NCBI RefSeq assembly: GCF_009734185.1
Contig: NZ_CP046393.1
Coordinates: forward strand, 550,501-614,500
Source: Commensalibacter melissae
GTDB taxonomy: Bacteria > Pseudomonadota > Alphaproteobacteria > Acetobacterales > Acetobacteraceae
Direction: 5' to 3'
Length of the DNA stretch: 64,000 nt
In this document: piece by piece, positions 8,382 through 27,817 of the stretch
Numbering within the stretch: position 1 is the first letter of the stretch
How the letters are laid out: every line of letters starts with the position of its first letter
The notes under the pieces: model-generated
What the model was told of the DNA's origin: nothing
Database searches by the model: none
What the model saw: the letters and a program-made list of their open reading frames with translations, nothing else
Translations under genes and position numbers: made by a program

Positions 8382-9539
8382 TTATAACGGAAAACTATCA
8401 ATAATTTGGTTCTTGGTGTTTTCGAGTTTATCAAAATAGCTTAAATCAAGTTGTCTTAATGGAATATGATTTAAATTTTTGAATAAAACGGGGTTATAAA
8501 AATTTATTTCTGTACGATGTATGCCTGCGAAATAATCAAAGAATTTCCATTTTCCTCCATCATGCAATTTATTATCCCACAACCAAATATTTGGGATATG
8601 ATAGCTGTCTGCAATAACAAGTCCATGTAAACTGCTGGATGCAATATATTTGCAGGATTTTAGCTGGTCAATAAAAACGTTAATATCAGGATCGGTGATA
8701 TCAATAAAAAGAGTATTGGGTGTATTTTGTAATATTTGCTCTACCCAGCTCTTTTTATATTGACTGTGATGAACAATAAGACCCCAGTCATATTTTTTTT
8801 CTTTGTTGGGGTTATATATACGATCACATATTAATCCAGGATCCCCATAAGGTAATTTACATTTATGTGAAGTTAAGGATTCATGGGTCAATGGTCCACG
8901 TAATAAAGAAATCTTGAATAATTCAGTAGGTAATGAGGAAGGTGAAAGAGTTCCGCTCCCCCATACAGGATAAATTCTGTTTCTTGGTGTTGCCCAGTTT
9001 AAAATGCTGCCTATTCCGATTAAGTCTGTGTTTTTTAAATTGGTTCTACATATTATTTTTTTACTTAAATATCCAATAATATATAAATTTAGTTCATCAC
9101 CTATATTTGTGAACTGTTTGTTGCGCCACCAATACAGATTAACAGAATTGTTCATTTTTTTGTTAACCAGAGTGTTGAATTGGTTTATATCAAATTTTAT
9201 TTTATGTGCTTTTTGAAGCTTAAATTTCTTCCATTGTTTATTTTTTAGCTGTACAGTTTGAAATAATGTTTGATGATGATGTGTTGTAATGGGAATATTA
9301 TAATAATAACAGTTTAATCGTCGGGAAATAAAAGAGTAATTTCCGGGAAATTGATGTTTTATAATAACATGATCAAACAGGTTTTTTTTATCATGGATGA
9401 ATCCTGTTTTCATATCAGTTGTGGACAAATAAACAGGGTGGTGATTGTTTTTTTTCTGAACCATATAGAGGTGATGGTTTAGATAGCATAAAGAAGATTC
9501 TTCTTCAGTTCTGCAGATTATAAAATTTTTAAGTGACAT
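8382..9539 (-). CDS. Polysaccharide pyruvyl transferase family protein
   Basis: 385 residues. From about residue 135 the chain shows the family core: NIGDELNLYIIGYLS, GIGSILNWA, VWGSGTL, LRGPLTHESL, YGDPGLI, a GLIVHH strand and the C-terminal IASSSLHGLVIADSYHIPNIWL. These are typical of the CsaB/WcaK/ExoV group, GT-B-like enzymes that attach pyruvate ketals to cell-surface sugars. The first 130 residues are not recognised and may be an extra domain. No sugar synthesis genes are next to it (metH lies upstream), so its acceptor sugar cannot be inferred. Some family members have other surface-glycan roles. Confidence 0.82.
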   Translation of the reverse strand: MSLKNFIICRTEEESSLCYLNHHLYMVQKKNNHHPVYLSTTDMKTGFIHDKKNLFDHVIIKHQFPGNYSFISRRLNCYYYNIPITTHHHQTLFQTVQLKNKQWKKFKLQKAHKIKFDINQFNTLVNKKMNNSVNLYWWRNKQFTNIGDELNLYIIGYLSKKIICRTNLKNTDLIGIGSILNWATPRNRIYPVWGSGTLSPSSLPTELFKISLLRGPLTHESLTSHKCKLPYGDPGLICDRIYNPNKEKKYDWGLIVHHSQYKKSWVEQILQNTPNTLFIDITDPDINVFIDQLKSCKYIASSSLHGLVIADSYHIPNIWLWDNKLHDGGKWKFFDYFAGIHRTEINFYNPVLFKNLNHIPLRQLDLSYFDKLENTKNQIIDSFPL

Positions 9540-13559: not shown

Positions 13560-15830
13560 GTGGATCAACCAGATAAGGGCTCCATACAGTTAGGAGCAGG
13601 GCAAAGCAATAATCAAGGGAAAACGCAGAAGCTTTCCCCAATGATGATTCGTTTACGGGCAACAATGGCAGCTGCAAAATATCATGGGGTTGATCTAGAT
13701 ATACGTGATTTTGCAGCTGAGCCTGGTGAAGACTCACCGTCCCCGGCAACTTTGGCACGCTGGCTGAATAGTCAGGGATTGATTGCTAAAGGGATGCGTT
13801 TGAAATGGCGATATTTGATACGCTTGTATAATTCACCTCCCATTGTACTAATGTTTAAGGATGGTTCTGCAGGGTTGATGGTGGGTGTCAATCCTGAAAA
13901 AAGAATTGTTTTTTTAAGAGATCCGTTGAAGGGGGAAGGTGAACCCCCTATCCCTGTTGAAGAAATTCGCTTAAGGCAGGCCTGGACGGGTGATATTCTT
14001 CTTGTAAAGCGAAATAAAAATCTTTCTGAAAGTGAAGATAAGATTGATTTTAAATGGCTTTTCAAAATGGTATTGCGTGAACGTGCCTCTTTGCGTGATA
14101 TTTCAATAAGTTCAATGATAATAAGTATTTTGCAAATTTTTCCTGCTTTTATAGTGATGCAGGTAGTAAATCGTGTGGTTGCTTTTCAATCAATGGCGAC
14201 ACTGATATCGATTAGTGGGTTGTTGATTGTCTTAAGTTTTTATGAGATCTTAATTAGTTATGCCAGACGAGAGATTACCAACGTTATGGCAACACGTTTG
14301 GATGCTCGTATATCTATTCATACCTATAATCGTTTACTTTCTTTGCCATTGGAATTTTTTGAACGGCAACAGGCAGGTCGTTTAATCGGGAAGGTTTCTC
14401 AGATATATCAGGTGCGAGATTTTATCACGGGCCGATTAATGACAACTTTTCTGGATATGTTTACGTTAATTGTTATTTTACCTTTCTTATTTTATATTAG
14501 CGTTATTTTAGCATGGCTGACGGTTGTTGCAGCAGGTTTGATCGGTTTAATTGTGGTTATTTTTATTAAACCATTAACATATTATTATAGTAATCGTATT
14601 GAAGCGGAAATGACGCGTGGATCTGCAATGTATGAAACCGTTGCAGGTATACGAACTGTTAAAACTTTAGCTTTGGAACCTTCCCGTCGTCGTGATTGGG
14701 ATAATATTGTTGCTGAAGTTTGTAAATGGCGGTTATCAACAACGCGTATGCAAAATTGGCCTGAAACATTGGTTATGCCGTTGGATTTCTTTATTAATCG
14801 AGGGATTATTTTAATTGGTGCCTTTATTTGTATAACCAATCCAACAGCGGGAGTTGATGCTGGTGCAATTGTCGCTTTTATGATGCTGGGAGGGCGTGTT
14901 GCGGCTCCTCTCGTTGGATTGGCTAAATTAATGACTGTAATAACAGAAGTAGAAACCTCATTAGTTCAAGCGGGAGAAATTTTAAATAATCCAACGGAAA
15001 CAAAAGCGTTGACTACAGGATTGAGACCAAAGATTATTGGTGCACTATCCTTTGAAAATATTAATTTTACATATCCTGGAGGAAGTAGTCGGGCGTTAAA
15101 AGATTTAAGTTTTTCAATCCCAGCAGGTACTATGTTGGGTTTGGTGGGACGTAGTGGATCCGGTAAATCCACTATAACACGTCTTTTGCAGGGCGTAAGC
15201 CGAAATTATGAAGGTTTTTTAAGGCTGGATGGTGTAGATTTGCGTGAAATTAATCTTACCCATTTAAGGCGCTCTTTTGGTGTTGTTTTACAGGATAATT
15301 TTTTGTTTCGTGGAACAATTAGGGATAATATTACCGCTGGACGTCCAGGATTGACAATGGAAAAGGTTATCTGGGCAGCACGAATGGCTGGCGCTGAAGA
15401 ATTTATAGAGCGTATGCCCGCTGGATATGACACTTTTATCGAAGAGGGCTCAACGAACATTTCAGGAGGACAAAGGCAACGTCTTGCAATTGCAAGAGCT
15501 GTTATTCTAGACCCAAAACTAATGATTTTAGATGAGGCAACATCCGCTCTTGATCCTGAAAGTGAAGCATTGGTTAATGCCAATTTGGAGCGAATTGCCA
15601 AGGGAAGAACGATGGTTATTGTTTCACATCGATTATCATCATTAGTGAATTGTGATCAAATACTGGTTATGGATCAGGGTGAAATGCAGGCAATTGGAAC
15701 ACATGAACAATTATTAGAAACCTGTGAAATTTATCGTACTTTATGGTTGCAGCAAAATCGACATGTTGATGAAAGAAAGCATTCAAAAAAAAATGAAGCC
15801 CAGAAACCTGTAATTACGGAAGGAACATAA
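13560..15830 (+). CDS. Type I secretion ABC exporter with C39-like domain (HlyB/LapB type)
   Basis: 756 residues starting at GTG with AAGGA six bases upstream. Residues 20-150 form a C39-like domain: the position of the peptidase Cys has none, and GSAGLMVGVN stands where a peptidase would have its HFVV histidine. It is therefore expected to dock substrate rather than cut a leader, as in HlyB. Residues about 175-460 are the ABC transmembrane domain. The ATPase shows Walker A GRSGSGKST, a Q-loop, the signature SGGQRQRLAIARA and Walker B LMILDEATSALD. It would move an unfolded protein from the cytosol together with the HlyD partner next door and an outer membrane TolC-type protein that is not encoded here. 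Confidence 0.92.
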   Translation: MDQPDKGSIQLGAGQSNNQGKTQKLSPMMIRLRATMAAAKYHGVDLDIRDFAAEPGEDSPSPATLARWLNSQGLIAKGMRLKWRYLIRLYNSPPIVLMFKDGSAGLMVGVNPEKRIVFLRDPLKGEGEPPIPVEEIRLRQAWTGDILLVKRNKNLSESEDKIDFKWLFKMVLRERASLRDISISSMIISILQIFPAFIVMQVVNRVVAFQSMATLISISGLLIVLSFYEILISYARREITNVMATRLDARISIHTYNRLLSLPLEFFERQQAGRLIGKVSQIYQVRDFITGRLMTTFLDMFTLIVILPFLFYISVILAWLTVVAAGLIGLIVVIFIKPLTYYYSNRIEAEMTRGSAMYETVAGIRTVKTLALEPSRRRDWDNIVAEVCKWRLSTTRMQNWPETLVMPLDFFINRGIILIGAFICITNPTAGVDAGAIVAFMMLGGRVAAPLVGLAKLMTVITEVETSLVQAGEILNNPTETKALTTGLRPKIIGALSFENINFTYPGGSSRALKDLSFSIPAGTMLGLVGRSGSGKSTITRLLQGVSRNYEGFLRLDGVDLREINLTHLRRSFGVVLQDNFLFRGTIRDNITAGRPGLTMEKVIWAARMAGAEEFIERMPAGYDTFIEEGSTNISGGQRQRLAIARAVILDPKLMILDEATSALDPESEALVNANLERIAKGRTMVIVSHRLSSLVNCDQILVMDQGEMQAIGTHEQLLETCEIYRTLWLQQNRHVDERKHSKKNEAQKPVITEGT

Positions 15831-15831
15831 A

Positions 15832-17400
15832 ATGGTGGATGATAATCATAAAAATCAATTGCCAGGAAATGTGAATTCTGAAAATAACAATGAAAAATCT
15901 AATATTTCTAATGAATTGACAGATACTACTGAAAAAAAAATAAAAAAAACTTCAGAAAAAAAAGATGTTTCATTGAATGATGAACAGTCAAGTATACCAG
16001 AAGGATATTTGCCTGCAGCAGATAACACGGCAGAATCTCAAGCTGATATGCCGATAGCTTTACTAGAGTTTACTTCACCTACTGCAGCTATTATCAATAT
16101 GCCGCCAACAGCTTCTGCCCAGTATATTACTTGGGTTATTGGAGCTTTGGCGCTTTTTTCCATTATCGCGTTATGTGTATTTCCACTTGACAAAGTAGTT
16201 TCAGCTCAAGGTCGACTGGTTTCAGTGGATCCACCTTTGTTAATTCAACCAATGGAAGAGAGCATTATTAAATCAATTGATGTTAAAGAGGGGGATTTTG
16301 TAACGAAAGGACAGGTTTTGGCTCATTTGGATCCGACAATTCAACAGGCCGATATTGATAATCTACGTTTACAAGTTGAAAGTGGACAGGCTGAGTTTGA
16401 TCGATTGCAGGCCGAAGCTTCTAATAAAAATTATACAGTGGACCCATCAAATCCTTATTCGGTAGAACAGGGGAATAGTTTTATAAAAAGAAAACTTGAG
16501 TATGATGCGAAAGTTGATGGTTTCAACCAGAAAATCAACGAACAATCGTTTCAACTTAAAAACTTTCTTGCAACTACTGCTGTATTGAAAGGGAGATTGC
16601 AAGTTGCATCTGATATTCATTTGATGCGGAAAAAATTGCAGGAACAACAAGTGGGAAGTCGCTTATCAACTTTAGGTTCGCAAGATACTTTAATGGATGT
16701 TGAGGATAAATTAATAACGGCACAACAATCAGCGAATGCTACGCAAAAGAAAATAGCATCTTTATTAGCTGATAAACAGGCTTACATTGAAAGTTGGAAG
16801 GGTGAAGTTTATAAGAATCTAACTTTAATTCAAAGGCAATTGGCAAAAGATAAGGGAGAGTATGAAAAGGCGAAACTTCGTCGTAAAAAAGTCTTGATGA
16901 GGGCCGAACAGGATGCAATTGTACTATCAATTTCAAAAGGTTCTGTTGGTTCTATACTAAATTCTGGAATGCCGTTTATGACTCTAGTACCTGTTGGTAC
17001 AGGTTTGGAAGTTGAAGCTGCTGTACAAGATGCGGATGTTGGATATATGAAGTTGGGTGATAAAGCGATTATAAAATTTGATACTTTTCCCTATACACAA
17101 TATGGTGGAGCGGAAGCAGTTGTAACAAATGTTAGTGCCGATGTCTTTCAGCCTGGTGATACAGGTCAGGATATGAGTAATCGTCGGGGTGCAGCACCTT
17201 TACAATTTCGAGAAAAACCTTTTTATCGTGTAAGATTGAAAATCAATAAATACACTTTGCACAGTATACCGAATTTTTTTCATCCAACCCCTGGACTTAC
17301 TGTTACAGCTGATGTTCATGTTGGTAAAAGGACAGCGGCTCAGTATTTAATGAATGGTATTGTACCTAAGTTAACAGAAGGGATGCGTGATCCACAGTAA
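15832..17400 (+). CDS. HlyD-family membrane fusion protein of a type I secretion system
   Basis: 522 residues. A polar cytosolic N-terminus of about 95 residues (longer than usual, rich in Asn, Lys and Glu) is followed by one membrane helix (about 102-122) and VSAQGRLVSVDPP, the usual start of the periplasmic part. A split biotinyl-lipoyl-like domain (IKSIDVKEGDFVTKGQVLAHLDPT; MRAEQDAIVLSISKGSVG) brackets a coiled coil of about 200 residues, and the C-terminal beta barrel follows. It bridges the ABC exporter to an outer membrane channel. Its ATG lies one base after the exporter's stop, so the two are co-translated partners. Confidence 0.93.
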   Translation: MVDDNHKNQLPGNVNSENNNEKSNISNELTDTTEKKIKKTSEKKDVSLNDEQSSIPEGYLPAADNTAESQADMPIALLEFTSPTAAIINMPPTASAQYITWVIGALALFSIIALCVFPLDKVVSAQGRLVSVDPPLLIQPMEESIIKSIDVKEGDFVTKGQVLAHLDPTIQQADIDNLRLQVESGQAEFDRLQAEASNKNYTVDPSNPYSVEQGNSFIKRKLEYDAKVDGFNQKINEQSFQLKNFLATTAVLKGRLQVASDIHLMRKKLQEQQVGSRLSTLGSQDTLMDVEDKLITAQQSANATQKKIASLLADKQAYIESWKGEVYKNLTLIQRQLAKDKGEYEKAKLRRKKVLMRAEQDAIVLSISKGSVGSILNSGMPFMTLVPVGTGLEVEAAVQDADVGYMKLGDKAIIKFDTFPYTQYGGAEAVVTNVSADVFQPGDTGQDMSNRRGAAPLQFREKPFYRVRLKINKYTLHSIPNFFHPTPGLTVTADVHVGKRTAAQYLMNGIVPKLTEGMRDPQ

Positions 17401-17438
17401 TGTAAAACATAAGGTGAAATTGAATTGGAAAATTTATA

Positions 17439-19292
17439 ATGCGTGTTTTTTTTAATCCCTTGAATAAAGTCAAAAAAAAGAAAATTCAAAAATTTTTGAA
17501 TAAGGGGAAAAAACATTATGAAAGAAAAGAATATGTTTCAGCATATAATTGTTTTTCACAGGGCGCATCTTTAAAATCCCCTGAAGCTCAATATTACCTG
17601 GCTTTATGTTATTTAAATGGACATGGAGTTGCTTTTAGTCTGCAAGAAGCATCTTTATGGTTTGAAAGTGCAGCATCAGCTGGCTATAATGACGCTGAAT
17701 ATATGCTTGCATTATTATATATGCGTGGACTTCCCGAACTTAATGCAGTAACTGGACATGATATATTTACCCTAAAACAGGCTAAAGTTTCCGATGACTT
17801 AAAAACCGATTATGAAAAAGCTCGTTATTGGGCTCAAAAAGTAGCTGAAAATGGGTCTGCTGATGGTCAGGCCCTCTATGCTTATCTCTTATCAGAAATC
17901 ACATCTGAACAAAATCAATTTGATGAAATAATAAAATGGTATGATAAGTCAATTTCCCAAGGTTCACCGCAAGGTTATATGGGGAAAGGGTTGTTTTTAT
18001 TAAAAATTAGCAAAACCCAGGATGATTTTTCCAAAGCGGCTGCATTATTGCAAGTTGCAGCTGAAAATGGACTTGGTACGGCGATTTATACCTTGGCTAT
18101 TATGTATGAAACTGGAAAAGGGGTTGAAATTAATCATGAATATGCTGTTCAGTTGTATAAACAGGCTGCGGAATTGGGTATCCGACAGGCTCAAGCATTA
18201 TATGGCATTGCCTTACGAAAAGGAAACGGGGTTGAGCGGAATTTCATTGAAGCTGAAACTTGGTTAAGACGTGCTGCCGTAGGTGGGGATGTAGAGGCTG
18301 CTTCGGTATTGGCCGATATGTTGGCATCAGGTAATAAGGATATACCACCTAATTATACTGAAGCTATAAAATGGTATCAGTTTGCGTTTTTAGAAAAACA
18401 GCATGTTGGTGCCGCTTTTGCCTTGGGATATTTATATTTTAATGGTTTAGGAGTTGTTAAGGCTGTAGATAAGGCAATTGATCTTTATAAATTTGCTGCG
18501 GATAGAGGATATTTGCCAGCGTTAGATATTCTTGCCGAAATCGCTCTTACAAATTCTCAATATATTTCTGTAGAAGAAGTCGTCGATAATTATTTGCGTC
18601 CCCAAGCGGAAAAAGGCAACAAGAAAATTATGTTAAAATTAGCGATGGCATTGACAAACAATAAAAATTCTGAAGTTGATTTAAACAAAGAAAAAGAAGC
18701 AAAAAAGTGGTTGCAAATCTGTTGTGATGAAGATGCAGAAGCTCAATATTGGTATGGGCGCATGTTGTTGCAGGGAATTGCTGGGGAAAAAAATCTTAAA
18801 GAAGCTTGTAAATGGATCAAGTCTTCAGCGGAGCATGGGATAGTCAAAGCGCAATTATTATGGGCTTCCCTTTTGTCGGAAGGGAAAACGGAAGATGGAA
18901 AAATTCATATTCAGGAAGCTTTAGAATTTTTTAAAAAGGCTGCTGAAAAAGGTGATGCATCGGGCATGTTTTCATTGGGTGCAATTTATGGGGGTGGAAA
19001 TCATTTAAGAGAAAATAGGCAGGAAGCTCAAAAATGGTTTGAAAAAGCTGCTGAATTGGGTCATTCAAAAGCTCAGCTGATGTTGGGACGTTATTTATAT
19101 GACGGTTTAGCGGGAAATAAAGATATAGCTAAAGCGCGTTATTGGTTTGAAAAAGCAAAAGATAATGGGGAAAAAGAAGCAGGGTTGGTATTGAATGTAC
19201 TAAATGAGGAAATAAATCAGCAAGATTTGAAACCTGTTAAAAATAAACAAGTGGAAGTGGCTCCTGGTTTGTTTATATTTCAAGACACATAG
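17439..19292 (+). CDS. Sel1-repeat (TPR-like) protein in the secretion cassette
   Basis: 617 residues built largely of about 36-residue Sel1 repeats with motifs such as AQYYLALCYLNGHGV, AIYTLAIMYETGKGVE, AQALYGIALRKGNGV and AQLMLGRYLYDGLAG. No signal peptide or membrane helix is visible, so it is probably cytosolic. Sel1 solenoids act as protein-binding scaffolds. It starts 38 bases after the adaptor gene and ends 35 bases before the large glycosyltransferase gene, so it belongs to the same transcript. A role in recognising the exported or glycosylated protein is an inference from position only. Confidence 0.88.
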   Translation: MRVFFNPLNKVKKKKIQKFLNKGKKHYERKEYVSAYNCFSQGASLKSPEAQYYLALCYLNGHGVAFSLQEASLWFESAASAGYNDAEYMLALLYMRGLPELNAVTGHDIFTLKQAKVSDDLKTDYEKARYWAQKVAENGSADGQALYAYLLSEITSEQNQFDEIIKWYDKSISQGSPQGYMGKGLFLLKISKTQDDFSKAAALLQVAAENGLGTAIYTLAIMYETGKGVEINHEYAVQLYKQAAELGIRQAQALYGIALRKGNGVERNFIEAETWLRRAAVGGDVEAASVLADMLASGNKDIPPNYTEAIKWYQFAFLEKQHVGAAFALGYLYFNGLGVVKAVDKAIDLYKFAADRGYLPALDILAEIALTNSQYISVEEVVDNYLRPQAEKGNKKIMLKLAMALTNNKNSEVDLNKEKEAKKWLQICCDEDAEAQYWYGRMLLQGIAGEKNLKEACKWIKSSAEHGIVKAQLLWASLLSEGKTEDGKIHIQEALEFFKKAAEKGDASGMFSLGAIYGGGNHLRENRQEAQKWFEKAAELGHSKAQLMLGRYLYDGLAGNKDIAKARYWFEKAKDNGEKEAGLVLNVLNEEINQQDLKPVKNKQVEVAPGLFIFQDT

Positions 19293-19327
19293 CTAATTTA
19301 TATTTAATTGCTTAATTGTGAGGCGTT

Positions 19328-22300
19328 GTGTCAGGAAAAAATAAAGCACAATTAGTGGTTTACGCTAGAAAAAAAGCAGAAGGGCTCGAAAAACTAAGAA
19401 AGAATGCACAGATTGCATATTCAAAAGCCCAAGAAGCTAAGCAAAATGGACAAATTGAGATTGCACTTCAATGGATGTGTAGAGCGCATCATTTAACACG
19501 AGGCAATCCGAATATTATCTTTGATTTGGCAGTTTTAAATCTAAAAACTGGTAATTTAGAGGATGCCCATGATTTATTGCAGCCTTTATTGAAGCAATAT
19601 GATTTCTATGAAGGCTGGATAGCACAAGCAGTTATTTATTCTTCTCGCAAATCCTCAAAACAATTAATTGAAATTTTGAATTATTTTCTTTCTCATTACA
19701 GTCCATCCCCGGAAACATGGTTATTGACTATTAATCTCTTGAAACAGGTTTCAAATATTGTCGGCTGTTGTTGTATCAAGGGGTCATTAAATGAAATATG
19801 GATAGATTCATTTAATGATTATCAAGTCAGTATATATTTGGATAATCAATTATTTATTAAAACAAATCAGACAAAAATTATTCTGCCCTCAGGATGGCAG
19901 AAAAAATATAAAAAATTGCGTATTGAACAAGATGGTGTTCCTTTTGTAGGCAGTCCTGTTGATTTGGAGTCAATTAATCTAACAATTGGGTTTGTAGAAG
20001 TTAAGAATGAAACATTAATCGGGTGGGTTTGGTGTCCAGCCGAGCCCAGTCGAATACCTTTGATCACTATAAAAGATTATAAGGGAAAGATTTATCATCA
20101 ATTTCGACCCAAGGATGATATTGAGGTTGTTACTCTTGAAACACCTTTGTTACAGGCAAAATCTTTTAGAATTTCCATTCATGATTTTTCTGCTGGAATG
20201 TATTCTGTTCAAGATGAGTTTTTGCGTCATTTAATTGGTAGTCCTTTGGATCCTAGCTTGGAATTCAGGGCAAAAACTTTTTTAATTCATATGCAAACCC
20301 CTGCATACCATAAGAAAAATATTAAAATTTCAAATGTAGCTCATTTTTTTCCTGTTCAAGCAGTATATAAAGGATATGACCCAGTAATACTTAAAAAATC
20401 ATCAGAGGGCATAGTTATTGTCATACCTGTTTATAAGGGAAAACAGATAACATTGGATGCACTTCAGAGCGTATTGAATAGTGTACCGGAAAATGTAAAG
20501 ATTCAATTGGTTAATGATGCTTCTCCTGATAAGGAACTGGTTGTTTCATTAAAGGAATTCATAGATGACCAGCAAGTTTTTTGCATTAATCATAAGGTAA
20601 ATAAGGGTTTTCCCACTGCTGTTAACAGTGGTATGAAGGCTTGGCCTGGATACGATATTATCTTGTTAAATAGTGATACCTTGGTAGGAGGGAAATGGAC
20701 CGAAACGCTTTGTCGGGCCGCTTATCAGGAAGAAAATATTGGAACGGTAACTCCTTTTTCAAATGATGCGGGTATTTATTCTTATCCTTATCACGATAAG
20801 AAGAATTTGATGCCTGATAATCAAACAATTTTTCATTTTTCAAAAATATTTAAAAAAATAAACGAGCATCAATTAATAGAGATACCTACGGCACATGGTT
20901 TTTGCATGTTTATCCGACATGACTGTCTGGCGCAAACAGGATTGTTTCGTGAGGATTTATTTGCCCAGGGATATGGTGAGGAAAATGATTTTTGCATGCG
21001 TGCACGGCATTTAGGTTGGAAACATGTTTTGGCAGCTGATTGTTTTATAGGACATAAAGGGGGTGTTTCATTTGCATATGCAAAAAAACTATTAGGGAAA
21101 AGAAATACGGAAATTCTCAATCGGCTTTATCCAGGATATGATGAAATGGTACAGGATTTCATACGTGATGATCCGTTATTGCCATTCCGTCGAAATATTG
21201 ATCTATATAGAATTCAAATCCTGCTTGATGCTCAAAAGAAACGTCATGAGAAGTATCAATTTGTTTTACTGGTCACGCATCAATTTGGTGGAGGGGTGGA
21301 AAGGGCGGTTCAAGAAAGAACAGATATTTTACGTTCCCAAGGTTTTATTCCAGTATTGATCAGACCGACAATTTTGGGAGATGGCTGTCAGATTGAAATT
21401 CAATTCAAATCAAAAAGAAATTTGGAAAAAGAAATAAACCTGATTTTTCCCAATCTAATTTTTTATTTTCCTCATGAATTAGAAAAATGCCTAAATTTTC
21501 TACAATTTCTTTCTGTAGATTCGTGTGAAATACATCATTTGAAAAAACATCATAAATTGATGACAGATTTATTACTTAAAATAAATAAACCTTATGATGT
21601 ATATATTCATGACTATCTGATTTTTTGTCCGAGAACCGTTTTGTTAAATGAAACCATGCATTATTGTGGAGATCCGAATGATTTGCAGATTTGTCAAAAT
21701 TGTGTAAATAGTTTGTGGAAGGAAGAAGAAAGCCCTAATTTCATTGATATGGAAAAATGGTGGCATGATTCATGGAAGGAATTAAAACAGGCAAGGGCTG
21801 TTTATGTGCCTTCTAATGATGCATTTAAACGTGTTTCAAAACATTTTCCAGAATTGGGACAGTTGGCGTTAAAATTTCTCGAAGACGATCGTCCTGATCT
21901 CACTATGAAACAATTAACATTCTTTTCTCAAAAACCCTGCCAGTTGAATGGAAAGATCAAAGTTAGAGATAATAGTTCAAACCGTTTCCGTATTTGCTTA
22001 ATAGGTGCGATTGGAGTGGAAAAAGGGTTTGATGTCATTCTTGCCTTACTTCAAGATGCTGATAAGCGTGATTTGCCGATTGAGTTTGTATTAGTTGGTC
22101 GTTCCGTGGATGATGATTTGCTAATGCGTTCCGGTCGCATATTTGTAACAGGAGAATATAAGGAGGAAGAGGCAGTTTCCATGGTGCGGGAACAAGAGGC
22201 TGATCTTGCATTTTTCCCGTCAATTTGTCCGGAAACCTGGTGTTATTCACTAAGCATTGCTTGGCGGGCTGGATTGAGGACAATAAGTTACGATATTGGT

Positions 22301-22414
22301 GCTATTGCTGAAAGAATTAAGCGAACTGGACGAGGAAATGTCATTTCGTTAAATTTATCTATTGCCAAACAGAATGATTTTTTATTAAAAGAATGTAAAT
22401 ATGTTGGTCATTAA
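19328..22414 (+). CDS. Large two-domain glycosyltransferase (TPR, GT2-like, GT4-like)
   Basis: 1028 residues from a GTG with GAGG just upstream. Residues about 10-140 look like a TPR-type helical repeat. Residues about 150-345 are a beta-rich unknown segment. Residues about 358-610 are a GT-A domain of family GT2: IVIVIPVYKGKQITLDAL, QLVNDASPDKE, the metal-binding-like LLNSDT, then GEENDFCMRAR. From about 643 (LVTHQFGGGVERAV) to the end a GT-B domain of GT4 type is seen, with GVEKGFDVILALL near 890 and FFPSICPETWCYSLSIAWRAG near 980. The cell would use two sugar donors or make a two-sugar unit with one chain. Acceptor unknown; the neighbouring secretion genes suggest a protein or surface polymer. 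Confidence 0.87.
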   Translation: MSGKNKAQLVVYARKKAEGLEKLRKNAQIAYSKAQEAKQNGQIEIALQWMCRAHHLTRGNPNIIFDLAVLNLKTGNLEDAHDLLQPLLKQYDFYEGWIAQAVIYSSRKSSKQLIEILNYFLSHYSPSPETWLLTINLLKQVSNIVGCCCIKGSLNEIWIDSFNDYQVSIYLDNQLFIKTNQTKIILPSGWQKKYKKLRIEQDGVPFVGSPVDLESINLTIGFVEVKNETLIGWVWCPAEPSRIPLITIKDYKGKIYHQFRPKDDIEVVTLETPLLQAKSFRISIHDFSAGMYSVQDEFLRHLIGSPLDPSLEFRAKTFLIHMQTPAYHKKNIKISNVAHFFPVQAVYKGYDPVILKKSSEGIVIVIPVYKGKQITLDALQSVLNSVPENVKIQLVNDASPDKELVVSLKEFIDDQQVFCINHKVNKGFPTAVNSGMKAWPGYDIILLNSDTLVGGKWTETLCRAAYQEENIGTVTPFSNDAGIYSYPYHDKKNLMPDNQTIFHFSKIFKKINEHQLIEIPTAHGFCMFIRHDCLAQTGLFREDLFAQGYGEENDFCMRARHLGWKHVLAADCFIGHKGGVSFAYAKKLLGKRNTEILNRLYPGYDEMVQDFIRDDPLLPFRRNIDLYRIQILLDAQKKRHEKYQFVLLVTHQFGGGVERAVQERTDILRSQGFIPVLIRPTILGDGCQIEIQFKSKRNLEKEINLIFPNLIFYFPHELEKCLNFLQFLSVDSCEIHHLKKHHKLMTDLLLKINKPYDVYIHDYLIFCPRTVLLNETMHYCGDPNDLQICQNCVNSLWKEEESPNFIDMEKWWHDSWKELKQARAVYVPSNDAFKRVSKHFPELGQLALKFLEDDRPDLTMKQLTFFSQKPCQLNGKIKVRDNSSNRFRICLIGAIGVEKGFDVILALLQDADKRDLPIEFVLVGRSVDDDLLMRSGRIFVTGEYKEEEAVSMVREQEADLAFFPSICPETWCYSLSIAWRAGLRTISYDIGAIAERIKRTGRGNVISLNLSIAKQNDFLLKECKYVGH

Positions 22415-22530
22415 ATAAAAATTAAAATTTGTTTTGAGAAATTATTAATTTTTTATTAGTTTTAATAAAATATTATTTAGTTATTTTAACTTTGCTATAC
22501 TTAGCCATCTTTTAAAAAGGAAATATATTA

Positions 22531-23559
22531 ATGTCAAAGTCTGATGATCAATCAAATAATAATCAGTATCAACAACGAATTATTGATTTAAATGTAAATG
22601 GTCATTTAATGAGTTTGGACACTGGATTATATTGTATTTATCATGTTGCCAATCAAATTCCAGCTGATGAATTTGGTTTGCCTGGCCTGCGTATTTCTGT
22701 TCCTCCCTTCAAACAGAACGCTACAGTTGAGATCAAGACTTTTGAAAATGATGGGTGGCTAGGCGCTGAAAAAAATGCTGTTCTAGTACGTATTTCGGGA
22801 GATGCTGGTTTGGTTCTTGTAACAGTTTATCGGAATCCATCAAATAATTATCCCGCACCTCAATTACAGGTTATTCGACTTAATGATGCTTCTGAAAATG
22901 ATAATTCAAATAATTTGACAAATGGATTGGGCAATCAAAATTCAGGTATCAATGAAAAAATAGCCAGACAGTCAAAGCGTGCGGTCGCTCAACAACAGAA
23001 TGAAATTGAAAAAGAAGGTAAAATGCGTGTTGTCGCCCATGTTCAACGTCTTGGTGACGTTAGTGTCGAACTTGGAGATTGGATTGGTATTCCAGACAGT
23101 AAAACATGGATTGAAGGATTCGGTTTATCATTAGATGATCGTATACAGCCAGAAGATATTGAATATCAGGCTGTATTGGGAAAAGGGTGGTTTTCTCCCT
23201 GGTATAAGGGTAATGAATTTTGTGGAAGTAGAGGAATGTCACTTCCTTTGTGCGGCTTGCGTGTTAGATTGAATGGTGATGCCGCGAAAAAATATACCTT
23301 ATCCGTGAAAGCAACCTTTATAGATGGAACTAAATTAGGTCCTGTCGATGATGATACCATTCTTTCATCGGAAACAATTGCGCCTCTAGAGGCATTTAGC
23401 CTGGATTTGATTGATCATGACAAGGGAAAAAATAGCAAGGAAGTCCCTGAAACTCATGTTAGTTCCAGCAATGTAAAGGGTATAAAACCAAGAACTAATA
23501 TCAAGGTTAAAAATGCTAAACATAAATCTTCATCTAATCAGAAAAAAACTGAAAGCTGA
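22531..23559 (+). CDS. Unknown protein with apparent hydrophobic-W (ChW-like) repeats
   Basis: 342 residues. Residues 1-140 form a beta-rich domain (DTGLYCIYHVANQIPADEF, VLVRISGDAGLVLVTVYRNP) that I do not recognise. Residues about 168-275 read like two hydrophobic-W repeats: MRVVAHVQRLGD with WIGIPDSKTWIEGFGL, then IEYQAVLGKGWFSPWYKG with GLRVRLNGDAAKKYTLSVKA. Such repeats are found in clostridial surface proteins; the match is by eye. The last 45 residues are a Lys/Ser-rich tail. There is no signal peptide, so it is either cytosolic or exported by the type I system. It lies 116 bases after the large glycosyltransferase and may have its own promoter. Confidence 0.72.
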   Translation: MSKSDDQSNNNQYQQRIIDLNVNGHLMSLDTGLYCIYHVANQIPADEFGLPGLRISVPPFKQNATVEIKTFENDGWLGAEKNAVLVRISGDAGLVLVTVYRNPSNNYPAPQLQVIRLNDASENDNSNNLTNGLGNQNSGINEKIARQSKRAVAQQQNEIEKEGKMRVVAHVQRLGDVSVELGDWIGIPDSKTWIEGFGLSLDDRIQPEDIEYQAVLGKGWFSPWYKGNEFCGSRGMSLPLCGLRVRLNGDAAKKYTLSVKATFIDGTKLGPVDDDTILSSETIAPLEAFSLDLIDHDKGKNSKEVPETHVSSSNVKGIKPRTNIKVKNAKHKSSSNQKKTES

Positions 23560-23629
23560 TTTTAACCAATATTGATTACCAAAATTAATTATGTTTAATT
23601 AATAATTATTGAATTAGCTCGTTAAAATT

Positions 23630-24904
23630 GTGAAATATTTATTCATACATCAAAATTTCCCCGGTCAGTATTTACATATAATAAAATATCTTGCGGGAAA
23701 GCCTGATAATGAAATTGTTTTTGTCAGTCAAGTGACGAGACGAACAATTGGGGGAATTCGGAATGTCTTTTACGGTAAAATTGATTCCGTAAATGAATTG
23801 CACTCTTCCTTGAACGAATTGCATCAGGCCGTTAAAAGAGGAGAGGAAGTTTACCAAACTCTTAAAAAATTAAAACAGCTAGGTTTTGTCCCTGATATCA
23901 TTATTGGTCATCAGGGATGGGGGGAGATGTTGAATGTTCAGGATATTTATCCTGATGTTCCAATATTGAAATATTGTGAGTTCTATTATCATTCAGATGG
24001 ATTGGATGTTAAATTTGATCCGGAATTTTTATCTGATGAACTGCTTCCGTCACGGGTCAGAATCAAGAATACCATTAATTTAATCTCTGCGAATAATCCA
24101 GGTTGGGGACAGACCCCTACGTTGTTTCAGTGGAAAACCTATCCTGAATGGGCGCGTGGACAAATTACAGTGTTGAGAGAAGGGGTTGATTTAAAGATTT
24201 GCAGTCCTGATGCAGATATATATAATCATACAATGAAATTCGAGGATTTCATCATCCACCCCAAAGATAAATTGGTCACCTATGTTGCCCGTGGATTGGA
24301 ACCCTATCGAGGGTTTCATATTCTTATGCGCTCCTTACCCAAAATTTTAAAAGAACGTCCAGACGCAAAAATCGTTATAGTTGGTGGGGATCAAGTCAGT
24401 TATGGTGCTGCGCTTCCCGGTAAATTGACCTGGAAACACTATTTTCTTCAACAGTTGGGTAATCAACTGGATCCCACTAGAATTTATTTTGCCGGGCTTT
24501 TGTCTTATCCCGTTTTTTGCAAACTTTTAAAACGGTCAGATGCGCATGTGTATATGACCTATCCTTTTGTTTTATCGTGGTCTTTACGAGAAGCGATGGC
24601 GATGGGTTGTCCGATTATTGCAAGTGATACTGACCCAGTCAAAGAATTTATTGTTCATCAGAAAACTGGAATTCTGACACCTTTTTTTGATAAAGAAAAA
24701 CTTGCTGATAATGTTTTGGAGGTTCTAGAAAATAAGGATCTTTCAAGTAAAATCAGACATTTTTCTCGGGAAGAGGCTGAACGATCTCTTTCAATGGATA
24801 TTTATTTAAATAATTATAATACATTAATCGATGATCTTATAAATCATCGAACGCCAGATCTAAGTCTGGGTAAATCTCCTGCCATGATTGGAGAGGAGCT
24901 GTAG
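23630..24904 (+). CDS. Glycosyltransferase family 4 protein
   Basis: 424 residues from a GTG. The N-terminal half opens with KYLFIHQNFPGQYLHI, an opening typical of GT4 enzymes that begin FxxQNFPGQF. The C-terminal half has VTYVARGLEPYRGFHILMRSL, KIVIVGGDQVSYG and the donor-site region SWSLREAMAMGCPIIASDT. A retaining GT-B enzyme that adds a sugar from an NDP-sugar, presumably to the same product as the double glycosyltransferase upstream. It closes the forward cassette that starts at 13560. Specific donor and acceptor cannot be read from sequence. Confidence 0.9.
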   Translation: MKYLFIHQNFPGQYLHIIKYLAGKPDNEIVFVSQVTRRTIGGIRNVFYGKIDSVNELHSSLNELHQAVKRGEEVYQTLKKLKQLGFVPDIIIGHQGWGEMLNVQDIYPDVPILKYCEFYYHSDGLDVKFDPEFLSDELLPSRVRIKNTINLISANNPGWGQTPTLFQWKTYPEWARGQITVLREGVDLKICSPDADIYNHTMKFEDFIIHPKDKLVTYVARGLEPYRGFHILMRSLPKILKERPDAKIVIVGGDQVSYGAALPGKLTWKHYFLQQLGNQLDPTRIYFAGLLSYPVFCKLLKRSDAHVYMTYPFVLSWSLREAMAMGCPIIASDTDPVKEFIVHQKTGILTPFFDKEKLADNVLEVLENKDLSSKIRHFSREEAERSLSMDIYLNNYNTLIDDLINHRTPDLSLGKSPAMIGEEL

Positions 24905-25055: not shown

Positions 25056-26123
25056 ATGGATTTTGATCGCATCAGCCGTCGTAAATTTACGCGTTCCTTT
25101 CTAATGGCTTCTGGTGCCGCTTTTATCGCCGGTCGTTGTGGAAATCAGGCATTCGCTGAAGAGCAATCTCAAACTGGGGATAGTCATTTTCCTGATTTGG
25201 GAACAATGCAAAAACTTCAGGGGGCTGCAAGAAAAATAACACTTGCTTGGAGTGCGGATTCAATATGTACGGTTGCCTTTCCAGTTGCACAAGCTAAGGG
25301 TTTTTTTAGTAAATATAATCTGGATGTAAATTTTATTGATTTTGCAGGATCTGTCGACCAAATGCTGGAAACAATGTCGACAGGTAAGGCTGATGGTGCG
25401 TCAGGTATGGCCCTGCGTTGGTTGAAACCTTTACAGCAGGGATTTGATGTTAAACTTGTTGCGGGGTTACATTCTGGCTGTTTGCATTTATTGGCTTCTG
25501 GTACAAGTTCCATAAAGAATCTAGCAGATCTGAAAGGTAAGACAATTGGTGTTGGAGATATTGGTGGACCAGCAAAAAATTTTTTCAGTATGCGTTTCAG
25601 GGAAATCGGGATAGATCCTGAAAAAGACGTAAATTGGCGTCAGTTTCCATCTGACATTCTACCTTTGGCTATAAAACGTCAGGCGATCCAGGCTGCAGGA
25701 CTGGATGATCCCTTGGCTTATTTACTTAAGCAGGAACATCATCTTGTCACTATAGATTCCAATATGTCAGGTGAATGGGCAAAAATCGCCTGCTGTGTTG
25801 TCGGTTTAAGAGGGTCATTGATAAGAAAAGATCCATTGGTAGGTAAGGCACTTACTCAGGCAATTCTGGAAGCAGGTCAATGGGTGCATCATAATAAGGA
25901 AGAGGCGGCTGAAATTTTTAAACCCTATGCGCCCAAGGCAACTGTTGGGCAGTTAACTGAAATTCTTGAATCAGAAGGAACTCATCAACAGGTTATTGGC
26001 AGCAATCTCCGGCAAAATGTATCTTTTTATGCACAGCAATTAAAACAAATAGGTGTTTTTCCTCTTTCTCTCGATATAAATGCGTATGCCGATAAAGTTA
26101 CCGAGGACATTTTTGCTTTATGA
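25056..26123 (+). CDS. Tat-exported ABC substrate-binding protein (NrtA/SsuA/TauA class)
   Basis: 355 residues. The N-terminus carries a twin-arginine signal (SRRKFTRS followed by a hydrophobic stretch and AFAEE), so it is exported folded to the periplasm. The body has the class hallmarks: ITLAWSADSICTVAFPVAQAKGFF, GLDVNFI-like strand, MLETMSTGKADGA, LADLKGKTIGVGDIGGP. This class binds nitrate, sulfonates, taurine, bicarbonate or thiamine precursors; the ligand cannot be chosen from sequence. The stop overlaps the permease start by four bases (ATGA), and the ATPase gene follows. This is a complete importer. Confidence 0.9.
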   Translation: MDFDRISRRKFTRSFLMASGAAFIAGRCGNQAFAEEQSQTGDSHFPDLGTMQKLQGAARKITLAWSADSICTVAFPVAQAKGFFSKYNLDVNFIDFAGSVDQMLETMSTGKADGASGMALRWLKPLQQGFDVKLVAGLHSGCLHLLASGTSSIKNLADLKGKTIGVGDIGGPAKNFFSMRFREIGIDPEKDVNWRQFPSDILPLAIKRQAIQAAGLDDPLAYLLKQEHHLVTIDSNMSGEWAKIACCVVGLRGSLIRKDPLVGKALTQAILEAGQWVHHNKEEAAEIFKPYAPKATVGQLTEILESEGTHQQVIGSNLRQNVSFYAQQLKQIGVFPLSLDINAYADKVTEDIFAL

Positions 26124-27055
26124 TTCAAAAAGTAAAAATAGTATATTGGTCGCAATTGGCAGCTTTTATAATGTGGTTTGGGACTGCTTTTCTTACCTAT
26201 TTTATCAAAAATGCTGATGATTTTCCCAGAACAACTGAATTTACCTGTCTATGTATCATTATAGCAGTTTTTTGTGTAGTAACGCTTCCATTTAATAAAG
26301 TTAGATATTATGGACCATGGTTGCTGGCTCTGGCTCTTATTACAGGAGGATGGGAAATTGTACAGGCAAAGTGGTTATTACTGCCGCGTCCTTTTTTTGG
26401 TGCACCACAGGAATTGTTGGATGTATTCATAACAGATTGGTATCGTCTACTGGATTCCCTGTTACATTCCCTAACGTTGCTGTTGGGTGGATATATTTTT
26501 GGTTGTCTTATTGGCTTTTTAATCGGAATAGGAATGGGATGGTCTTTACGTTTTGGTTATTGGGCCCATCCTGTATTGAGGTTTTTTGGACCTTTGCCAC
26601 CTGTAGCTTTTTTACCTTTACTTTTTGCTGTTATACCATCCAGTTGGTTGGCGGGTGAACTGTTAATGGCATTTGCCGCCGCTTTTCCTGTTGCAGTATT
26701 GACATGGTCAGGAATTGCAGGGGTCAATCCGGGATATTATGATGTTGCCCGAACGATGGGGGCAAGCTCATCCTTCTTGATTCGTCATGTTGCCATTCCT
26801 GCAGCTTTACCTTTTGTTTTTGTAGGGATGTTCATGGCTTTGGGTTCCTGTTTCTATATGCTTGTCGTAGCGGAAATGCTGGGGGTTAAAGCAGGTCTCG
26901 GGTTCTATATGCAATGGGCGCAGGGATGGGCTGCCTATCCAAATATGTATGCGGCTTTAATCATCATGGCGGTAATGTGCACAAGCTTCATGACCCTACT
27001 TTTTAAAATTAGGAATCGTTTACTGCGTTGGCAAAAAGAAAGTATTAAATGGTAG
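26120..27055 (+). CDS. ABC transporter permease (nitrate/sulfonate/taurine class)
   Basis: 311 residues. After two extra N-terminal membrane helices (about 10-75) comes the BPD permease core with five or six helices, including WYRLLDSLLHSLTLLLGGYIFG and the EAA-like loop VARTMGASSSFLIRHVAIPAALPF. It forms the inner-membrane channel of the importer. The additional N-terminal helices make it somewhat longer than the usual 250-270 residues of SsuC-type permeases. It overlaps the binding-protein gene by four bases and ends six bases before the ATPase start. Confidence 0.9.
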   Translation: MIQKVKIVYWSQLAAFIMWFGTAFLTYFIKNADDFPRTTEFTCLCIIIAVFCVVTLPFNKVRYYGPWLLALALITGGWEIVQAKWLLLPRPFFGAPQELLDVFITDWYRLLDSLLHSLTLLLGGYIFGCLIGFLIGIGMGWSLRFGYWAHPVLRFFGPLPPVAFLPLLFAVIPSSWLAGELLMAFAAAFPVAVLTWSGIAGVNPGYYDVARTMGASSSFLIRHVAIPAALPFVFVGMFMALGSCFYMLVVAEMLGVKAGLGFYMQWAQGWAAYPNMYAALIIMAVMCTSFMTLLFKIRNRLLRWQKESIKW

Positions 27056-27061
27056 GAATGT

Positions 27062-27817
27062 ATGGCGGAAAAACAAAGGATTGACATCACACATTTAAGC
27101 CATGGTTATAGTCTGGATAATGATGATTTGCCGGTATTGGATGATATTAATCTGACAATTGAACCACAGGAATTTGTTGTCATACTGGGCCCATCAGGAT
27201 GTGGTAAATCAACATTGTTACGAATGATAGCGGGGCTTGAGCAACCTTTGAATGGATCGATTCAGGCAAATGGACAGGAAATTTCTGAGGCAGATCCATC
27301 AAGAGTGGTTGTTTTTCAGGATCCGACCCTATATCCATGGTTGACAGTTTGGGATAATGTCAATTTGGGTTTCAAAATCCGTAAGGAAAAGAACGATCAT
27401 GCCGTTCAACTGATGCTTGAACTGATCGGGTTGAATAGTTTTAAAAATGCCTACCCTCGACAATTATCGGGTGGCATGGCACAAAGGGTGGCGTTGGCCA
27501 GAGCCTTGGTTAATGATCCAGGCATTCTTATTTTGGATGAACCATTGGGAAAATTGGACAGCCTGACTCGCATTACAATGCAAAAAGAGTTGGTTCATTT
27601 ATGGCAACAAAGAAAATTCACGGCAATTATGGTAACCCATGATATTGAGGAGGCATTGTTACTGGCAACGCGCATCATTGTCATGCGGCATCGTCCAGCG
27701 CATATCATAGGTGAATTTCGGCTCAATATGGATTATCCAAGGCATAGAGACTCGGAAGAACTGATTAAAATTCGTAAAGATATTTTTCATCTTTTGGGTC
27801 ATCAATCTGATTGGTAA
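27062..27817 (+). CDS. ABC transporter ATP-binding protein (nitrate/sulfonate/taurine class)
   Basis: 251 residues, a full single-domain importer ATPase. Walker A is GPSGCGKST, the Q-loop region reads VVFQDPTLYPWLTVWDNV, the signature is LSGGMAQRVALARAL, and Walker B is ILILDEPLGKLD followed by the switch histidine in MVTHDIEEAL. The PWLTVWDNV segment is characteristic of SsuB/TauB/NrtD ATPases. It powers the importer encoded by the two genes before it. Confidence 0.93.
   Translation: MAEKQRIDITHLSHGYSLDNDDLPVLDDINLTIEPQEFVVILGPSGCGKSTLLRMIAGLEQPLNGSIQANGQEISEADPSRVVVFQDPTLYPWLTVWDNVNLGFKIRKEKNDHAVQLMLELIGLNSFKNAYPRQLSGGMAQRVALARALVNDPGILILDEPLGKLDSLTRITMQKELVHLWQQRKFTAIMVTHDIEEALLLATRIIVMRHRPAHIIGEFRLNMDYPRHRDSEELIKIRKDIFHLLGHQSDW

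Follow-up and report, generated by a model that had tools for sequence, protein, structure and literature searches.

What does a type I secretion exporter do among glycosyltransferase genes, with no apparent substrate beside it? A six-gene cassette of Commensalibacter melissae raises this question; it lies in the stretch of 64,000 nucleotides analyzed here (contig NZ_CP046393.1, positions 550,501 to 614,500), which we call the window. Commensalibacter is described as a genus of honeybee gut symbionts in a comparative study (PMC10149009). A first-pass annotation had proposed that the six genes act together and that the cell glycosylates a large adhesin before or during its export. Our results partly support this reading: the cassette is one conserved unit across Acetobacteraceae, with its gene order kept, and we consider it rather probable that it constitutes a dedicated glyco-coupled type I secretion system, in which an RTX-type protein would be glycosylated in the cytoplasm and then exported. 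The glycosylation itself is what we infer.

Six open reading frames (ORFs) on the same (+) strand fill window positions 13560-24904, separated from 5′ to 3′ by 1, 38, 35, 116, and 70 bases, and their coordinates, strand, and domain matches were confirmed. They code for a type I secretion ATP-binding cassette (ABC) exporter of 756 amino acids (aa) with a C39-like domain that has no cysteine (13560-15830; PF00664, PF00005, and TIGR01846), an HlyD-type adaptor, or membrane fusion protein, of 522 aa (15832-17400; TIGR01843), a Sel1-repeat protein of 617 aa (17439-19292; PF08238), a double glycosyltransferase (GT) of 1028 aa with TPR, GT2, and GT4 parts (19328-22414; identified with Pfam, a profile search against PDB, an AlphaFold2 model, and VIA-align), a ChW-like protein of 342 aa (22531-23559; identified by a Pfam ChW match, a structural model, and a GT fusion in Azospirillum), and a GT4 glycosyltransferase of 424 aa (23630-24904; PF12000 and PF00534).

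Conservation of the cassette and features of its products

The ChW protein is present in 138 of 200 genomes of the family, and exporter matches at E ≤ 1e-150 occur in 145 of them. To compare gene order, we scanned named genomes with the ChW protein and kept the best 80 of 281 loci, so this sample leans towards close relatives. All six genes were found in the same order in 72 of these 80 named Acetobacteraceae loci, and the other eight are cut by contig ends (in three of the eight, our script mistook an unrelated ABC gene further downstream for the exporter). Genera with the cassette include Commensalibacter, Acetobacter, Gluconobacter, Gluconacetobacter, Bombella, Saccharibacter, Neokomagataea, Tanticharoenia, and Acidisphaera. 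Among 20 deeper-branching loci of our choosing, 13 are complete and in order, five are cut by contig ends, and two are split or rearranged: L232 has the ChW and GT4 genes only, and in L244 the GT4 gene precedes the exporter gene and neither the 1028-aa gene nor the ChW gene is present. The immediate neighbors, determined by crude ORF calling, belong to 18 families upstream (68 loci) and 20 downstream (69 loci); because they differ among loci, the cassette is kept where its surroundings vary. Conservation of the six genes is far above chance. The comparison of gene order therefore bears out the operon-like unit proposed in the first-pass annotation, and separate genes in no conserved order, which that annotation had named as the outcome that would speak against it, are not what these genomes carry.

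Among type I models, TIGR01846 is the best match for the exporter (1.2e-150, 503 bits, which is below the curated cut-off of 725.55 bits), and the adaptor scores 293.7 bits with TIGR01843, above the cut-off of 208.65. The C39-like region of the exporter (aa 1-150) has no cysteine, the first one being residue 388; for this reason the protein is of the non-cleaving kind and should not cleave its substrate. We counted the adaptors above the TIGR01843 cut-off in 34 genomes of our choosing, 33 with the cassette and one (G066) without it, and found exactly one in 33 of the 34. In the genome of origin, a single contig of 1.96 Mb from a Commensalibacter melissae-like bacterium, this adaptor is that of the cassette. 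A second exporter/adaptor pair is located outside the window (G000:C1:460786-464348, or L250:4786-8348); it has a weaker adaptor match and an intact C39 cysteine, and is of the bacteriocin type. Two ORFs at L250:12449-15649, also outside the window, resemble phage terminase and portal genes by eye, and a prophage is possible there.

Hydropathy indicated no N-terminal signal in the Sel1, 1028-aa, ChW, or GT4 proteins; no membrane stretch was found in the Sel1, ChW, and GT4 proteins, and the only one in the 1028-aa protein, within the GT4 domain, is marginal. The Sel1 protein, with PF08238 repeats at 1.2e-58, is possibly a cytosolic scaffold. It also matches phrog_8741, of unassigned function (17439-19289; 1.7e-94), probably through its Sel1 repeats. 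In Pfam, the 1028-aa protein matches GT2 (1.8e-15) and, slightly below the cut-off, GT4. It comprises TPR helices (residues 3-139), a beta domain (146-300), a GT-A domain of the GT2 kind (about 357-616), and a GT-B domain of the GT4 kind (about 642-1028), and its AlphaFold2 model has a mean predicted local distance difference test score (pLDDT) of 86.5. In a profile comparison with PDB, profile positions 30-126 matched TPR chains (1e-22 at best) and the TPR of OGT (1e-4 to 3e-4). The protein thus has a TPR domain fused to a glycosyltransferase, a feature of FlmG/OGT-like O-glycosyltransferases. The ChW-like protein has two predicted beta domains (about 20-120 and 165-296; model mean pLDDT 79.1, predicted template modeling score 0.52) and one ChW (PF07538) match, of 22.6 bits with a cut-off of 22. 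Proteins of the PF07538 class (clostridial hydrophobic W) carry repeated ChW motifs in a secreted protein; having a single motif and, by hydropathy, no signal peptide, the cassette protein falls outside that definition, and the hydrophobic-W-like repeats initially attributed to it come down to one motif.

Upstream of the cassette lies metH, on the opposite strand and adjoined by a polysaccharide pyruvyl transferase-like gene (8382-9539), and downstream are an NMT1/SsuC/SsuB transporter operon and a pyrophosphatase gene. The NMT1/SsuA-like, SsuC, and SsuB genes (25056-27817) directly follow the cassette, and among the 80 loci they are the immediate neighbor only in the Commensalibacter loci L037-L039.

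A candidate RTX substrate at a second locus

Neither a TolC gene nor an RTX gene is located beside the cassette. The first-pass annotation was right that a TolC protein and a large repeat substrate are not visible locally; it needs correction in that the genome of origin has both TolC-type genes and an RTX ORF, unlinked to the cassette. Matches to PF02321 (TolC-type) were obtained in six ORFs, none of them linked to the cassette, and a search with PF00353 identified a single 514-aa ORF, hit twice (G000:C1:1633143-1634684), outside the window. This is the only RTX protein found in the genome, which the profile built for its family also matches once. The large size foreseen for the exported adhesin does not apply to this candidate, nor to its counterparts in the other fetched loci (284-524 aa, save one ORF cut at a contig end), although the genome was not scanned for large non-RTX substrates. 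An alignment of 17 members of the substrate family is conserved at the start and at the end. Positions 352-453 of the profile align to residues 342-446 of serralysin, and positions 322-461 to residues 475-615 of a lipase, that is, to their RTX and C-terminal parts, so the 514-aa ORF has the RTX repeats and C-terminal signal region of HlyBD substrates. In G040, G173, G232, and G235, also Commensalibacter, there are 4-8 substrate matches per genome, not all of them separate genes and some in tandem. Longer frames of 795-837 aa in G085, G149, G192, G008, and G046 match most of the substrate profile and are possible further substrates.

The RTX gene is itself flanked by glycosyltransferase genes. 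An 894-aa double GT4 protein (GT894) is encoded on the same strand and a 1029-aa GT4/GT2 protein (GT1029) divergently, and the locus also holds a gene for a 301-aa RgpF-like protein. We fetched 41 loci around substrate matches, taking the strongest of the initial search first and then weaker profile matches, and found a substrate-type ORF in 39. A GT894 relative lies on the same strand within 200 bases in 18 of the 39, and GT894 or GT1029 relatives within 1 kb in 20; the sample is uneven, with strong matches having the enzymes and most weak ones not. The own RTX locus is also near a nadE-like gene, as judged by eye.

Moreover, an RTX gene and glycosyltransferases occur together on plasmids of Azospirillum, where a glycosyltransferase of about 1400 aa holds GT and ChW parts in one ORF (two ORFs were tested and the others were taken from their annotation). 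We read seven of the ten Azospirillum records with a ChW match, the plasmid gene table being incomplete, and in all seven the fusion gene comes right after a gene whose annotation reads calcium-binding protein, with a methyltransferase gene and a GT4 gene next downstream. In the two records tested, the RTX profile matches this calcium-binding protein (1.4e-18 and 2.4e-29). Among the plasmids of the collection, the 514-aa protein has a single hit, in the calcium-binding gene that precedes the same enzyme in A. thermophilum. One Bradyrhizobium plasmid carries a ChW-like gene followed by two GT2 genes. From the Azospirillum and Bradyrhizobium arrangements we conclude that ChW accompanies glycosyltransferases, and these accompany RTX genes, in more than one lineage. 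On an Aureimonas plasmid (L275), a ChW-like gene and, about 5-7 kb away, two genes with a SapC family annotation lie in a region of glycosyltransferase genes.

The association between export and glycosyltransferases that had been noticed in the cassette therefore extends beyond it, to the RTX gene with its flanking enzymes and to the GT-ChW fusion beside the Azospirillum RTX gene. This bears on the idea that exporter and glycosyltransferases are functionally separate, that their order reflects vertical inheritance and shared regulation, and that the RTX protein is exported without any link to sugars. Such an explanation would agree with the synteny common to parts of the family (metH upstream, pyrophosphatase downstream) and with the R. 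rubrum plasmid, on which an exporter, an adaptor, and a relative of the glycosyltransferase are found in a looser setting. We nevertheless consider it quite improbable, as the neighbors vary while the six genes stay together and the RTX gene is accompanied by glycosyltransferases both at the second locus and in Azospirillum.

Association of cassette and substrate across genomes

We called the cassette in the 200 genomes by the ChW protein or by an exporter match at E ≤ 1e-200, and the substrate by a profile match at E ≤ 1e-20, a cut-off that we chose. The cassette was present in 141 genomes and the substrate in 67; 65 have both, 76 the cassette only, two the substrate only, and 57 neither. The two are associated at this cut-off (Fisher p 2e-10, not corrected for phylogeny). 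The two genomes with a substrate and no cassette are G004, an assembly of 480 contigs with a cassette-bearing congener (G103), and G126, an assembly with frame breaks. Within Acetobacter (genus g31), substrate matches were obtained in all four of the cassette-bearing members included in the same test; in G212 metH is intact and the cassette beside it has decayed to a remnant, G202 has no cassette beside metH, and neither has a substrate match. The exporter thus co-occurs with a distant RTX gene, one half of what the first-pass annotation had set as the contrary outcome, but also with the glycosyltransferases, which the other half denied.

Several results, besides the uncorrected p-value, weigh against the proposed coupling. 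At E ≤ 1e-3, substrate matches are found in 113 of the 141 cassette-bearing genomes vs. 47 of the 59 without the cassette, and there is no association; the pairing consequently rests on the strict cut-off. In our reading, the matches at E ≤ 1e-3 reflect generic RTX repeats. The 76 cassette-only genomes lack a substrate match at E ≤ 1e-20, and 28 of the 141 lack one even at E ≤ 1e-3. PF00353 was not found in 11 of 12 cassette-bearing genomes unmatched in the initial substrate search; of these 12, nine contain partial relatives according to the profile, which has no match in G029, G031, and G116. Conversely, in G245, a Commensalibacter draft of 30 contigs, the whole substrate locus is present but metH and the exporter and ChW genes are missing; either a gap in the draft or a recent deletion could account for this. 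Bombella-type genomes (L217-L222) have a shorter relative (284-441 aa) with no flanking glycosyltransferases, which adjoins nadE where that gene was identified (L217). As for the enzyme, the GalNAc-transferase match of the 1028-aa protein ties with other GT2-fold enzymes, and in the profile comparison with PDB chondroitin synthase outscores GalNAc-transferase by sequence. High serine and threonine content is common in RTX-like proteins.

The genomes without a match even at E ≤ 1e-3, together with others that have up to nine substrate-profile matches, would also be expected if the cassette exported other substrates and the RTX protein were a minor one or none of its own. We give this very little credence, considering that a single RTX ORF was found in the genome of origin and that the exporter does not have the C39 cysteine needed for leader-peptide cleavage.

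Proposed route and known systems

In the route that we favor, the starting point would be the cytoplasmic synthesis of an RTX-type protein that carries a type I signal at its C terminus; in the genome of origin this is the 514-aa protein. The TPR end of the 1028-aa enzyme would recognize it there, with the help of the Sel1 and ChW proteins. The GT2 and GT4 activities of that enzyme and the separate GT4 enzyme would attach a core glycan, probably to serine or threonine, which the enzymes encoded beside the substrate gene (GT894, GT1029, and the RgpF-like protein) may extend where they are present. The HlyB-like exporter, HlyD, and an unlinked TolC would then export the modified protein. We infer the pairing of exporter and substrate, all the enzymatic steps, the order of glycosylation and export, and the final location of the product from the conserved operon, the single type I adaptor and single RTX protein detected in this genome, the co-occurrence at the strict cut-off, the recurrent substrate locus, and the Azospirillum fusion.

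The main competing explanation is that the product of the glycosyltransferases is a polysaccharide, on the surface or secreted, namely lipopolysaccharide (LPS) or exopolysaccharide (EPS), and that the RTX protein is exported unmodified and binds it, in the way that LPS is bound by the Caulobacter S-layer. There is precedent in Rhizobium, where, according to one study, PrsDE-exported calcium-binding (Rap) proteins bind EPS (PMC9298526), and dTDP-rhamnose genes are found near the Azospirillum, Rhodospirillum, and Bradyrhizobium relatives. We regard this explanation as unlikely, though deserving of attention. Pfam revealed no polymerase, flippase, or initiating transferase in the six cassette and four substrate-locus genes, the rest of the genome not having been searched, and a protein acceptor fits better because TPR is fused to a glycosyltransferase and because the ChW fusion lies beside an RTX gene.

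We see as evenly poised the broader proposal of an ancient “glyco-type I secretion system” in most Acetobacteraceae, in which one operon would both glycosylate an RTX-type protein, building a multi-step glycan in the cytoplasm, and export it, an optional second set of enzymes would be encoded beside the substrate gene, and ChW would be a new acceptor- or glycan-recognition module. If this is true, protein glycosylation would join the repertoire of type I secretion, and a genetically testable system for building extracellular glycoproteins would be common to a large bacterial family with industrial, plant, and insect-gut members. The conserved ChW-like protein, annotated as hypothetical in the records examined, would acquire a testable function. 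As the cassette is retained in the genomes of about 2 Mb of bee-associated species, it is also a candidate colonization or biofilm factor.

The closest relatives in export are the HlyBD/TolC systems, with which the cassette shares a C39-like exporter without the cysteine, an HlyD above the curated cut-off, and a substrate whose RTX C-terminal region aligns to serralysin and lipase. It differs from them in that the exporter, below the TIGR01846 cut-off, is encoded together with the Sel1, TPR-glycosyltransferase, ChW, and GT4 proteins in an operon-like unit, and in that substrate and TolC are unlinked. The Caulobacter S-layer protein RsaA is likewise an RTX protein secreted by a type I system, and polysaccharide genes lie close by; however, RsaA binds LPS, and the glycosyltransferases associated with it make the LPS O-antigen that anchors it. 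Cytoplasmic glycosylation of proteins coupled to a dedicated exporter is known from the SecA2 export of serine-rich-repeat adhesins and from HMW1C-type systems, whose exporters and enzymes are unrelated to those of the cassette. PrsDE of Rhizobium leguminosarum likewise exports calcium-binding proteins by a type I route, with genes dispersed in the genome, but its substrates bind or cut EPS, and the word glycosyltransferase is absent from the main text of that study (PMC9298526). FlmG, the flagellin O-glycosyltransferase of Caulobacter, is the closest worked precedent for the mechanism: in this alphaproteobacterial enzyme an N-terminal TPR part binds flagellin and a C-terminal GT part modifies it (PMC7591256). 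FlmG is nevertheless a protein of 596 aa with one GT-B domain that serves flagellin (PMC7591256), whereas the cassette combines GT-A and GT-B domains with Sel1, ChW, and a type I exporter. According to the Commensalibacter comparison, all of its genomes have type 1 secretion and a bacteriocin exporter; the word glycosyltransferase is absent from the main text of that paper (PMC10149009). In the open-licence literature we found no account of exporter, glycosyltransferase, Sel1, and ChW together. The parts of the cassette are of known kinds, and it is their fixed combination and the partner locus that look new.

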